Shown: positions 10,001-56,433 of the stretch, piece after piece | Numbering within the stretch: the first letter of the stretch is position 1 | Layout: every line of letters starts with the position of its first letter | Assembly (NCBI GenBank): GCA_017622215.1 | Contig: JAGARO010000012.1 | Coordinates: 65,043-129,042 of the forward strand | Direction of reading: 5' to 3' | Length of the DNA: 64,000 nt | Origin: Clostridia bacterium | Lineage (GTDB): Bacteria; Bacillota; Clostridia; Monoglobales; Monoglobaceae | Notes under the pieces: generated by a model | Seen by the model: only the letters and a program-made list of their open reading frames with translations | Database searches by the model: none | Told to the model about the DNA's origin: nothing | Made by a program: the position numbers and the translations under genes

Positions 10001-10198
10001 AAAAAAACCCTGCATGTGCCGTATATTGCATAAGGTAAAAACCTGCATAGCAGGTGGGCTGTAGCCCGATTACTTTACAAGTCCACTGGCATTGCCAAAG
10101 GCAAAGGAGGCATGTGCGCCATAATCGGAGACCTACGTTCCCTTATAAAATGTGTTGGTTTTACATTATTGCAATTAAATACGAACACCGCAGGGTGA
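10001..10198 (-). ncRNA. ssrS: 6S RNA
   Basis: On the minus strand the region is closed by a terminal stem CCCTGCGGTG (5') with CAC-at-GCAGGG (3'), followed by seven T, and is about 195 nt long, the size of 6S RNA. The 5' sequence CCCTGCGGTGTTCG resembles the 6S terminal stem. A long interrupted hairpin with an internal loop fills the middle. A strong promoter precedes it, and no ORF explains the conservation-like structure. 6S RNA mimics an open promoter and holds sigma-A RNA polymerase in stationary phase. Identification is from overall form, not a covariance search. Confidence 0.72.
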
Positions 10199-10206
10199 GC
10201 ATCTTT

Positions 10207-45950: not shown

Positions 45951-46562
45951 TTGGAATATAGAAACCCAAACTATGATTCTCTGCCTGACGAAAGTCTGGC
46001 TGAACTATCCCTTAATGGAGATAAAATAGCAACAGAGTTTCTGCTTGAACGATATAAGGACAGGGTTCGCTCCTGTGCAAGACTTTATTATCTTGCAGGG
46101 GGAGATGATGATGACCTTATTCAGGAGGGTATGATTGGTCTGTTTAAGGCAATCTGCACCTTCGACAAGGATAAAAATTCTTCTTTTAATACCTTTGCAA
46201 ATCTCTGTATAAAAAGGCAGATGATTACTGCAGTTAAAACTGCAAACAGAAAAAAACATCTGCCCCTTAACAGCTATGTGCCTCTTACAGGCTACGGAGA
46301 GGAAGATGAAGAAGAAAAAATCCTTGATTTTCTTGTGTCAAACCCTGAAGAAATATTTATTGATAAAGAAAATATGGAGATAATTGAGGAGAAAATCAGC
46401 GATGGACTCAGTTTCCTTGAACAGACGGTGCTTTATCTTTATGTCAAAGGGAATTCCTATCGTGAGATTTCTGAAATATTAAAGAAAGAACCAAAGTCAA
46501 TAGATAATGCTCTTCAGCGTCTAAAAAAGAAAATGGTTGATATAATTGAGAACAGCGATTAG
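45951..46562 (+). CDS. sigH: RNA polymerase sigma-H-type factor
   Basis: 203 residues. The sequence resembles Bacillus SigH along its length: DLIQEGMIGLFKAI (region 2), TFANLCIKRQMITAVKTANRKKHLPLNSY, and SIDNALQRLKKKM in region 4. SigH starts sporulation and stationary-phase genes. TTG start with CGGAGG. Only 17 bases separate it from ackA with no terminator, so it is probably part of the pta-ackA transcript. A terminator follows. Confidence 0.93.
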   Translation: MEYRNPNYDSLPDESLAELSLNGDKIATEFLLERYKDRVRSCARLYYLAGGDDDDLIQEGMIGLFKAICTFDKDKNSSFNTFANLCIKRQMITAVKTANRKKHLPLNSYVPLTGYGEEDEEEKILDFLVSNPEEIFIDKENMEIIEEKISDGLSFLEQTVLYLYVKGNSYREISEILKKEPKSIDNALQRLKKKMVDIIENSD

Positions 46563-53803: not shown

Positions 53804-53837
53804 TATTTCAGTTATTTTTATATAGGAGATGATATCA

Positions 53838-55193
53838 GTGAGTATCAAAAACGAATATCTGCTCAGAGTTTATGCAGATGTTGAAAAAAGAAATCCTGGT
53901 GAAAAGGAATTTATGCAGGCTGTATATGAAGTATTAGAATCTTTAGAGCCTGTTGTTGAAAAGCATCCTGAATATGAAGCTAAAGGCTTGATTGAAAGAA
54001 TGGTTGAACCTGAAAGAATGATTACTTTCAGAATTTCATGGGTTGATGACAATGGTAAGGTACAGGTAAACCGTGGTTTCAGAGTACAGTTTAACAGTGC
54101 TATCGGACCTTACAAGGGTGGTTTAAGATTCCATCCATCTGTTTATGCCGGAATTATTAAGTTCTTAGGCTTTGAACAGACATTTAAGAACAGCTTAACA
54201 GGTCTCCCTATCGGCGGCGGTAAGGGTGGTTCTGACTTTGACCCAAGAGGTAAGAGCGACGGCGAAATCATGAGATTCTGTCAGGCATTTATGACAGAAC
54301 TTTACAGACATATCGGTCCTGACGTTGACGTTCCTGCTGGTGATATTGGCGTTGGTGCTAGAGAAATCGGTTATTTATACGGTCAGTATAAGAGAATTAA
54401 GGGCTGTTGGGAAAACGGCGTACTCACAGGTAAAGGCCTTGAATACGGCGGTTCTTTAATCAGACCTGAAGCTACAGGTTTTGGTGCTACATACTATGCA
54501 AACGAAGTTCTTGCTCACTTTGGCGAAACATTCGAAGGCAAAACAGTTGCAATCTCAGGCTTCGGTAACGTTGCTTGGGGTGTTTGTATGAAGGTTGCTG
54601 AACTTGGCGGTAAGGTTGTTACAATCTCTGGTCCTGACGGTTATGTTTATGACCCAGACGGCGTTACAACAGAAGAAAAGTTTAACTACCTCCTCGAAAT
54701 GAGAGCTTCCGGCCGTGATAAGGCTCAGGATTACGCTGATAAGTTTGGTTGCGAATTCCATGCTGGTGAAAAGCCATGGGGCGTTAAGGTTGATATCTGT
54801 ATGCCATGTGCTACACAGAACGAAATTGATGAAGTACAGGCTGAAAAGATTATTGCTAACGGCGTTAAGTACTACATTGAAGTTGCTAACATGCCAACAA
54901 CAGCTGAAGCTATGGCTCTCCTCAGAGGCAAGGGTCTCGTTGTTGGACCTGCTAAGGCTGTAAACGCTGGTGGTGTTGCAGTTTCTGCTCTTGAAATGGC
55001 ACAGAACTCAATGAGATATAGCTGGACAGCAGAAGAAGTAGATGAAAAGCTTAAGGGTATTATGATTAATATTCATAAGGTTTCTATGGAAACAGCTGAA
55101 GAATACGGTCTTGGCTATGACCTCGTAGCAGGCGGTAACATTGCAGGCTTTAAGAAGGTTGCAAACGCTATGATGGCTCAGGGTATTGTATAA
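53838..55193 (+). CDS. gdhA: NADP-specific glutamate dehydrogenase
   Basis: Hexameric enzyme making glutamate from 2-oxoglutarate and ammonia. 451 residues. YKGGLRFHPSVYAGIIKFLGFEQ, the catalytic lysine in PIGGGKGG, and the Rossmann loop VAISGFGNVAWG are conserved. I chose GTG 53838, 9 bases after GGAG; ATG 53829 overlaps it. Works with icd to assimilate ammonia. Strong codon bias. Confidence 0.97.
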   Translation: MSIKNEYLLRVYADVEKRNPGEKEFMQAVYEVLESLEPVVEKHPEYEAKGLIERMVEPERMITFRISWVDDNGKVQVNRGFRVQFNSAIGPYKGGLRFHPSVYAGIIKFLGFEQTFKNSLTGLPIGGGKGGSDFDPRGKSDGEIMRFCQAFMTELYRHIGPDVDVPAGDIGVGAREIGYLYGQYKRIKGCWENGVLTGKGLEYGGSLIRPEATGFGATYYANEVLAHFGETFEGKTVAISGFGNVAWGVCMKVAELGGKVVTISGPDGYVYDPDGVTTEEKFNYLLEMRASGRDKAQDYADKFGCEFHAGEKPWGVKVDICMPCATQNEIDEVQAEKIIANGVKYYIEVANMPTTAEAMALLRGKGLVVGPAKAVNAGGVAVSALEMAQNSMRYSWTAEEVDEKLKGIMINIHKVSMETAEEYGLGYDLVAGGNIAGFKKVANAMMAQGIV

Positions 55194-55210
55194 TTAAAAA
55201 AATTTTTTTC

Positions 55211-55240
55211 AGGTGTCCGATTTTGGACACCTGTTTTTTT
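55211..55240 (+). terminator. gdhA terminator
   Basis: CAGGTGTCC-gatttt-GGACACCTG then eight T. Confidence 0.95.
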
Positions 55241-55300
55241 GTACTAAAAATTCAAGATAATTGAAAAGCTTGTCAAGAGCATTTTGAAGAAAATTTTTTA

Positions 55301-55530
55301 ATATTATGTAAACTGAATTGGATTTCTAAAAATATAATTAGTTTACATAATATGACGGTTTTTTCAAAAACCCCCATAAATCAGTTATTCACAGCCTTTT
55401 CCACTTTTTCCACAGGTAAGGTTAAAAAAGTGGATAATTTTTGCTAAAAAATGGTAAAAAACTGTGGAATGCGATAATATCGGGCTTTTTAAATTTGTAA
55501 TTCTGAATTTTAATATGGTTTACATAATAT
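55301..55530. repeat. Three copies of a 13-mer in the gdhA-smpB gap
   Basis: GTTTACATAATAT occurs at 55341-55353 and 55518-55530, and its inverse at 55301-55313. The first two are inverted with 27 bases between. This 375-bp gap holds no ORF; its middle has the DnaA-box-like sites. Confidence 0.7.
55385..55437. promoter_or_regulatory. DnaA-box-like site cluster
   Basis: TTATTCACA (55385-55393) fits TTATNCACA; TTTTCCACA (55406-55414) and, inverted, AGTGGATAA (55429-55437) each differ by one base from TTATCCACA. No dnaA gene or classical origin neighbours are in the window. Confidence 0.55.
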
Positions 55531-55557: not shown

Positions 55558-55586
55558 TTGACGATAAGAATTAGATGTGATATACT
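55558..55586 (+). promoter_or_regulatory. smpB-ssrA promoter
   Basis: TTGACG (55558-55563), 17 bases ending TGA, TATACT (55581-55586). Confidence 0.75.
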
Positions 55587-55616: not shown

Positions 55617-56087
55617 ATGAAGGCGGAAGAAAAGGATATTAAGATTGTTGCGCAGAATAAAAAGGCACTGCACGACTATTTTGTTGATGCTGAATACGAA
55701 GCAGGAATAGAACTCTTTGGAACTGAAGTCAAATCCATACGAAACGGTGCTGTGAATTTAAAGGACAGTTATGTTTCTGTTAAAACGGGCGAAGCGTATC
55801 TTCTGGGGATGCATATTTCTCCTTATGAAAAGGGAAATATTTTTAACCGAGACCCACTGAGGTCAAGAAGATTGTTGCTTCACAAGAGGGAAATCCATAA
55901 GCTTATCGGCCTGACCCAACAGGACGGCTACACTTTAATTCCGCTTAAAATGTATTTTGTTGGACAGTATGTTAAGGTTTTAATCGGAGTCTGCCGAGGT
56001 AAGAAGAACTATGATAAGCGAGACAGTATAGCTGAAAGAGATTCAAAGCGTCGTATGGAAAGAGCCTTTAAGGAACTTAATCAATAA
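55617..56087 (+). CDS. smpB: SsrA-binding protein SmpB
   Basis: Partner of tmRNA in ribosome rescue. 156 residues. [29 protein letters not shown] at the N-terminus (an OB-fold), then NLKDSYVSV and the basic C-terminal tail [18 protein letters not shown] that enters the mRNA channel. AAAGGAGG precedes the ATG. Its stop codon is immediately followed by the first base of tmRNA. Confidence 0.98.
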
Positions 56088-56433
56088 GGGGGCGTAAAGG
56101 TTTCGACGGGGATTTTGAAGTTTTCGGAGCGAGCCGTGGCGGGCACCACGTTAAAAGTCCATTTTAAAATTAAACGCTAACAAAAATTTAGCTTACGCTG
56201 CCTAATTATGGCAACTGCTCCCCTTGTGTAACCACAGCATAAGCAAGGAGTATCAAAGTATGTGGTGAACGAGTCCTGTAAAGCTTTGAACAGGTCTTGT
56301 ATTTATGAAGCTACCAAAGGGATTGGATTGTTAATGAACCTGTCCCTGAGGGAATTTTAATCATTAACTACGCTCGTAGCGCTGATTATGAATAGGTCTT
56401 CGGACACGGGTTCAATTCCCGTCGCCTCCACCA
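56088..56433 (+). ncRNA. ssrA: Transfer-messenger RNA
   Basis: 346 nt, one-piece. 5' GGGGGCGTAAAGG pairs with the 3' CGCCTCC, followed by encoded A-CCA; the T-arm GGTTCAATTCC lies at 56408-56418. The tag reading frame is GCT at 56176 to TAA 56203-56205, encoding ANKNLAYAA after the Ala from charged tmRNA. The tag ends in AYAA rather than the usual ALAA. A 15-bp terminator follows. Confidence 0.95.

Follow-up and report, generated by a model that had tools for sequence, protein, structure and literature searches.

A 423 bp non-coding gap between gdhA and smpB, in a Clostridia draft genome, carries three copies of one 13-mer arranged around a group of DnaA-box-like sequences, DnaA being the initiator protein of chromosome replication. 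This raises the question of what such an arrangement is: an origin of replication, a control region of the adjoining genes, or a site of another kind where proteins assemble on DNA.

The locus lies in a window of 64,000 nucleotides, which is the whole stretch of DNA analysed here (G000:C10:65043-129042). Genome G000 is a draft of 1.18 Mb in 14 contigs and is 93.6% complete. In the window, gdhA (53829–55193) is followed by the gap, by smpB (55617–56087) and, directly after smpB, by the tmRNA gene (56088–56433). The gap was put at 375 bp in a first-pass annotation made from the letters of the sequence; this figure is corrected here to 423 bp. An Rfam match to permuted tmRNA (55877–56205) overlaps smpB and the normal tmRNA gene, and is probably a cross-hit of the true tmRNA. 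The window also encodes sigH (45951–46562; NF006148, above cut-off), 8.7 kb from the element, and a 6S RNA (10003–10199, minus strand; Rfam RF00013).

A search with SmpB returned relatives from the same family and order. The nearest named records by this protein are Oscillospiraceae and other Clostridia bins, with at most 83% identity. The set of relatives comprises 60 genomes including G000, with 51 in the order and 38 in the family; SmpB is present in 55 of the 60. G000 and its sister species G001 belong to genus g1. The features of the gap are as follows.

55208–55242, plus strand: hairpin and T-run, likely the gdhA terminator; left border of the element (read by eye)
55301–55313, plus strand: site C, half-site ATATTATGTAAAC, inverted relative to site B, with 27 bp between the TTATGTAAAC cores
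55341–55353, minus strand: site B, half-site ATATTATGTAAAC; its TTATGTAAAC core is 34 bp from DnaA box 3
55383–55413, minus strand: 31 bp core GTGGAAAAAGTGGAAAAGGCTGTGAATAACT (pattern search), with its kin the source of the search pattern for the triple
55385–55393, plus strand: DnaA box 3 of the triple, TTATTCACA, matching the consensus exactly and separated from box 2 by 3 bp
55397–55405, plus strand: DnaA box 2 of the triple, TTTTCCACT, abutting box 1
55406–55414, plus strand: DnaA box 1 of the triple, TTTTCCACA, one mismatch
55429–55437, minus strand: DnaA box TTATCCACT, one mismatch; reads TTTTCCACT in G001
55462–55470, minus strand: weak DnaA-box-like sequence ATTCCACAG, conserved in G001
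55518–55530, minus strand: site A, dif-type half-site ATATTATGTAAAC on the smpB side of the cluster, identical in G001
55558–55586, plus strand: promoter-like TTGACG-N17-TATACT of smpB; right border of the element (read by eye)

The 13-mer and the DnaA boxes of the gap

The 13-mer GTTTACATAATAT has three exact copies in the gap, at 55301–55313 on the minus strand and at 55341–55353 and 55518–55530 on the plus strand. The two direct copies and one inverted copy around the DnaA boxes that the first-pass annotation described are therefore present. No further exact copy is found anywhere in the window, where an order-1 model of the window predicts 0.0045 copies against the three observed. A genome-wide count shows that the 13-mer is rare in G000, with four exact copies, and that the reversed pattern does not occur. 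The fourth copy (C5:257-269) stands alone and begins one base past the parB stop codon, a placement kept in G001 (C25:39857). The 13-mer was considered as a ParB site and rejected; a canonical parS is found at C5:2032, and its sequence differs. Over the 60 relatives the exact 13-mer occurs at 49 places in 31 genomes against 23 places for the reversed pattern, and thus the enrichment of the 13-mer by itself outside G000 is only moderate. The 10-mer TTATGTAAAC is not rare: G000 has it at 10 places and G001 at 13, against 2 and 8 for the reversed pattern, and several of the places fall within apparent genes.

One exact and two one-mismatch DnaA boxes had been noticed between the 13-mer copies, and these are confirmed, all within 53 bp. 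In total, the gap has five DnaA-box-like sequences and three 13-mers. Single DnaA boxes are common in the window (107 matches with at most one mismatch versus 82 expected). The cluster in the gap is the highest-scoring DnaA-box cluster of contig C10 by our own score and, in the manner of B. subtilis clusters outside oriC, is located in a non-coding region away from oriC. The cluster scan took in four contigs, with C1 only to 135 kb. A cluster at C1:34482-34607, with five DnaA boxes in about 125 bp, outscores that of the gap; its neighbours are genes read as ruvX and rpiB.

Conservation of the DnaA-box triple

Three of the boxes form a head-to-tail triple with a geometry of 9+9+3+9 bp, i.e. box 1, box 2, 3 bp and box 3. 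A pattern for the triple was derived from 12 loci of the family that carry a pair of half-sites (see below), and the order was searched with at most three mismatches. Of the 51 genomes of the order, 43 carry the triple; G003 has two copies and the other 42 have one each. The reversed control matches in none of the 51. Eight of the 51 show no triple by this pattern and threshold. Within the family it is present in 36 of 38 genomes. The arrangement is conserved in relatives, and neither of the two observations that the first-pass annotation would have counted against it, high genome-wide frequency of the motifs or lack of conservation, was made. The two element copies of G003 (L250 and L366) lie one at sigH and the other near a gene read as rpmE, which suggests duplication and relocation.

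In a class-wide sample of 148 genomes, searched with at most two mismatches, the triple appears in 33, six of which are in the family. Among 24 triple loci examined outside the family, sigH is found at four, all in one other family, and one half-site motif at four. The only triple of G042 sits directly downstream of dnaA, a placement like that of an oriC.

The genes that adjoin the triple vary by genus. They are smpB and gdhA in g1, and sigH in g6, g7, g9, G008 and the second G003 copy; in g9, the gene on the A side varies within the genus by our reading. Overall, 24 of the 44 places have sigH no more than 1.5 kb from the triple, and two more have partial matches; for this reason the sigH–ackA neighbourhood looks ancestral. 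Upstream regions of smpB were read in 30 cases, and the element is present in two, those of the g1 species G000 and G001. Because the neighbours change between genera and the element stays, it need not regulate smpB. Regulation of smpB as the sole role was dropped on the count of two in 30.

Half-sites and composite geometry

The order of the element, site A, DnaA triple, then sites B and C facing each other, is fixed in three genera. Thirteen of the 51 genomes of the order carry a single inverted pair of the form TTATGTAAA-N16-45-TTTACATAA, and none has a match to the reversed control. Twelve of these genomes belong to the family (g1, 2 of 2; g9, 9 of 9; g3, 1 of 2). The thirteenth, G048, is outside the family; its genome lacks the triple, and DnaA boxes are absent from the 300 bp on either side of the pair. 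At all 12 family loci the pair adjoins DnaA boxes and a third half-site is found on the far side of the boxes, as TTATTGTAAAC or TTATTGTCAAC in g9 and g3 and as TTATGTAAAC in g1.

In all 12 genomes of the three genera, the distance between box 3 and site B is exactly 34 bp, and that between the end of site A and box 1 is 102–104 bp. The spacer between B and C is 27 bp in g1, 20 bp in g9 and 29 bp in g3. In an alignment of G000 with G001, the motif columns are identical at 88 of 90 positions versus 119 of 142 for the other columns (Fisher p 0.0004). A helical phasing of site C relative to the triple (offsets of 63, 70–73 and 84–87) is suggestive, but was set aside as post hoc and failing in g1. 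A CTTGAC stretch follows site C in L361–L366 and L346–L349. The TTGAC hexamer after site C was considered as a promoter and rejected: it is conserved by eye, but has no convincing −10.

Half-site motifs were also counted around all triples with the set TTAT(G|TG|GG)TAAA, which was picked after inspection of the data. Within 200 bp of the 44 triples there are 61 motifs (3.22/kb) versus 4 in 92.8 kb of their own outer flanks (0.043/kb), and 28 of the 44 triples have at least one. With the 12 source loci excluded, 29 motifs remain at 16 of 32 places (2.10/kb) versus 4 in 66.9 kb (0.060/kb), which is an enrichment of about 35-fold. Upstream half-sites lie 100–118 bp ahead of the triple in the family and in G041. 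Downstream half-sites in the family lie 32 bp (B) and 63–87 bp (C) past the triple pattern. The positions in G044, G046 and G049 deviate from those of the family.

The half-sites are not universal. The 12 places in g6 and the one in g7, 13 of the 37 family places, have a triple without any half-site motif of the set. Since the triple is kept there, the half-sites are dispensable for its role in g6 and g7.

Relation of the 13-mer to dif and to xer genes

The dif site is where chromosomes are separated once replicated. Read as ATATTATGTAAAC, the 13-mer is wholly contained in the B. subtilis dif sequence ACTTCCTAGAATATATATTATGTAAACT as given in PMC3025954. By its letters it is a dif arm, a point absent from the first-pass annotation, and it corresponds to the XerD-side arm. 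The exact outward two-arm pattern of dif is absent from G000 and G001, and no second arm was seen by eye beside the TTATGTAAAC sites.

Two-arm forms are found elsewhere. Exact outward palindromes of the arm with a 5 bp centre occur in four of 51 genomes of the order (G012, G005, G014 and G015), and all four lie behind a xer gene. This gene, of the L217 type, is found in 35 of 60 genomes, and its downstream sequence was read at 30 loci; the locus in G004 is cut off downstream. Imperfect two-arm forms lie behind xer in G008, G019, G028, G041 and G011, the form TTATGTCAAC in G030, and a single TTATGTAAA arm in G002, G010 and G007. No arm form was seen behind xer at the 11 g6 loci or at the more distant loci. 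The cumulative skew maximum is within 1 kb of the dif-like site in six of ten genomes: G012, G028, G030, G019, G015 and G005, the last with its site at a contig end and thus with skew from the left side only. It is 5–9 kb away in G008 and G014, and 15 kb away in G041, which has almost no skew; the G011 contig is too short. For the most part, then, the xer-adjacent sites show the behaviour of a terminus dif.

In NCBIfam, the L217 protein reaches the cut-off of neither XerC nor XerD, and a TTGCACAAAAT-type palindrome precedes its gene in four of four loci read (L018, L205, L207 and L217). Together with the dif-like site that follows it in several genera, this xer gene makes up a module resembling xerS–difSL.

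G000 encodes XerD on contig C7 (TIGR02225, 350.2 bits versus a cut-off of 329.6). An L217-type xer gene was not found in G000 or G001 (E 1e-40), nor was a full dif by exact or one-mismatch patterns. The pattern ATAA-N6-TTATGTNAA with one mismatch gave 52 and 54 matches in G000 and G001 versus 41 and 49 for the reversed pattern, with no clear dif among those read. The comparison of half-sites with a genome's own dif therefore comes from other genera. In g5 and g8, site A has the sequence TTATTGTAAAC, unlike the dif-like arms of G012, G005 and G014, which are TTATGTAAAC. In G041 there is a parallel change: site A, TTATGGTAAAC, is the same as the left arm at the xer-adjacent site of that genome. 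The G041 change points to a Xer partner, unlike the g5/g8 mismatch. In G007, of genus g7, a TTATGTAAA arm follows xer despite a sigH-linked triple that is free of half-sites; loss of the arm from dif can thus not explain the half-site-free state of g7. A dif of g6 was sought in G021, where only an unproven palindrome at 233.4 kb was found.

Position relative to origin and terminus

Tandem DnaA boxes with iteron-like 13-mers recall a replication origin of a chromosome or plasmid, still active or a remnant, and a plasmid-like origin remnant had been put forward for this gap. GC skew at the locus speaks against it. Every 5 kb bin of C10 has positive skew, both in the 120 kb on the left of the element and in the 14 kb on its right, and thus there is no change from minus to plus at the site. 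Eleven element loci were profiled, and in all 11 the skew does not change sign at the element, though its sign is weak in G006, G017 and G030. Neither dnaA nor dnaN adjoins the element in G000; dnaA is on C12 and dnaN on C5. A better oriC candidate is found on C5, with DnaA boxes at C5:16134 and 16247 (16.1–16.3 kb) between dnaN and rsmG, followed by a small ferredoxin-like open reading frame (by eye) before rsmG. The skew near this candidate goes from negative to about zero and is positive from 35 kb on. The origin proposal was dropped on the skew evidence, and the occurrence of the triple once in 42 of 51 genomes and the C5 candidate also speak against a remnant. The related triple directly behind dnaA in G042 is in its favour. 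An origin at this site is highly improbable.

The dnaA gene of G000 (C12, L046) is detached from dnaN and lies beside a gene read as mnmE and a tRNA gene (by eye); there are few DnaA boxes upstream of it. Detachment is also found in G021, a single contig of 2.76 Mb, with dnaA at ∼1.345 Mb and dnaN at ∼1.52 Mb, about 175 kb apart, and no skew flip in the stretches read. An origin of G021 at dnaA or dnaN was dropped, as neither is at a skew flip.

Two genomes allow the element to be placed relative to the terminus. In G021 the skew is mostly positive over the first 206 kb and negative between 206 and 290 kb. With the element at 102 kb, 104 kb separate it from the skew maximum of the first 290 kb; the L217-type xer gene lies at 221 kb. 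In G017 the skew of the first 100 kb has a weak maximum at 44 kb; the element lies 19 kb from it, at 63 kb, and xer is found at 33 kb. Terminus nearness is seen only in these two genomes. Both belong to g6 and are without half-sites, and for this reason terminus nearness of the element in g1 is only a lead.

Interpretation and comparison with known systems

The element is very probably a conserved DnaA-box cluster with dif-type half-sites. Order-wide conservation and fixed geometry support the first-pass view that proteins assemble on the DNA here, perhaps at a cluster that titrates DnaA or serves regulation. The best reading is a non-origin DnaA-box cluster that would follow the logic of datA and DARS, with a Xer recombinase as architectural partner; for the full mechanism we put the probability at about 0.5. 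DnaA would load cooperatively on the triple and be held away from oriC. The site would then be a DnaA sink or a place where DnaA activity is reset, as in the B. subtilis clusters and E. coli datA/DARS, the latter acting on the ATP/ADP state of DnaA. A Xer recombinase, in G000 most likely the XerD encoded on C7, may bind the isolated sites A, B and C; it would bind without recombining, as no second arm is seen beside these sites. Xer on the half-sites would shape the DnaA complex, a role that IHF and Fis have at datA and DARS2, and it may also provide a link with dif or with the unloading of SMC. The fixed 34 bp spacing and the flanking half-sites fit a DnaA complex with a Xer partner. Against such a partner speak the half-site-free triples of g6 and g7, in g7 despite the arm behind xer, and the difference between site A and the dif-like arms in g5 and g8.

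The E. coli loci datA, DARS1 and DARS2 are, like the present element, non-coding and built of DnaA boxes, and their binding sites are more conserved than their spacers, as here, according to the account in PMC4585315. In that account datA and DARS2 also carry sites for architectural proteins (IHF, Fis), and the architectural protein belongs to the DnaA complex. The three-box core of DARS1/2 described there resembles the triple in its number of boxes. Unlike datA/DARS, the putative partner sites are dif arms rather than IHF or Fis sites. In B. subtilis, joint deletion of six DnaA-box clusters leads to early initiation (Okumura et al., 2012, as cited in PMC5295017 and PMC13220808). Those clusters are likewise DnaA boxes away from oriC, and seem to lower free DnaA. 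They differ in being titled oriC-proximal, and dif-type half-sites are not named for them in the parts of these two papers that concern them; here the geometry of the triple is fixed over genera, and so are the half-sites in part of the family.

The arm sequence ATATTATGTAAAC is identical to that of B. subtilis dif as printed in PMC3025954. Unlike dif bound by XerCD, the arms here face inward 20–29 bp apart or are isolated, and there is no 28 bp two-arm core. As far as sequence tells, the element is not a recombination site. A precedent for XerD acting apart from dimer resolution is the unloading of SMC that depends on it in B. subtilis (Karaboja et al., 2021, as cited by others); the present element differs in having DnaA boxes built in.

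This SMC unloading is the main rival explanation of the half-sites. XerD unloads SMC condensin at the B. subtilis terminus, as reported in the relevant portions of PMC12322038, PMC8242196 and PMC8669397, and A, B and C might be XerD sites of this kind to which the DnaA cluster is merely adjacent. Isolated half-sites suit binding without recombination, and the elements of G021 and G017 are 104 kb and 19 kb from a skew maximum, the latter a weak one. However, the two genomes with the element placed near the terminus have no half-sites; in addition, the exact spacing between B and box 3, kept in all 12 genomes, speaks for a joint complex. On balance, a purely condensin-related role is unlikely. 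A further possibility is that the 13-mers are operators of an unnamed regulator, and that the match to the dif arm is coincidental. Inverted pairs and palindromes are usual operator shapes, and the lone copy after parB in both g1 species and the 49 versus 23 places over the relatives would agree with this. Against it are the presence of the 13-mer inside B. subtilis dif and the paired form behind xer, often at a skew flip, and coincidence thus appears improbable.

Control of smpB–ssrA by DnaA and a 13-mer-binding factor is doubtful to a similar degree. Site A ends 27 bp ahead of the promoter-like TTGACG of smpB, and G007 (L035) has two abutting DnaA boxes, TTATCCACA and TTTTGCACA, with one TTTACATAA/TTATGTAAA arm ∼340–390 bp upstream of smpB. 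These observations would favour such control, but the adjoining gene is smpB in g1, sigH at most 1.5 kb away at 24 of 44 places plus the two partial matches, and differs on the A side within g9; only two g1 species of the 30 read have the element upstream of smpB.

The reading of a DnaA-box cluster with a Xer partner could be extended to a composite switch, in which one complex of fixed geometry would couple control of initiation to terminus processing, i.e. dimer resolution or SMC unloading. This extension is tentative, and we regard it as possible rather than probable. No composite of DnaA with Xer or dif is named in the CC-licensed papers searched, among the matches listed.

Significance

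To our knowledge, little is known about how DnaA is restrained outside the origin in Clostridia.

For B. subtilis itself, a 2017 review states that no DnaA-box clusters were yet known to have a significant role in regulation, though removing six together leads to early initiation (PMC5295017). The order-wide triple of tandem boxes, often beside sigH, is a concrete candidate for such restraint. If the half-sites bind Xer, then DnaA and the recombinase of dimer resolution would share one site, and this would hint at a link between the start and the finish of the cell cycle.
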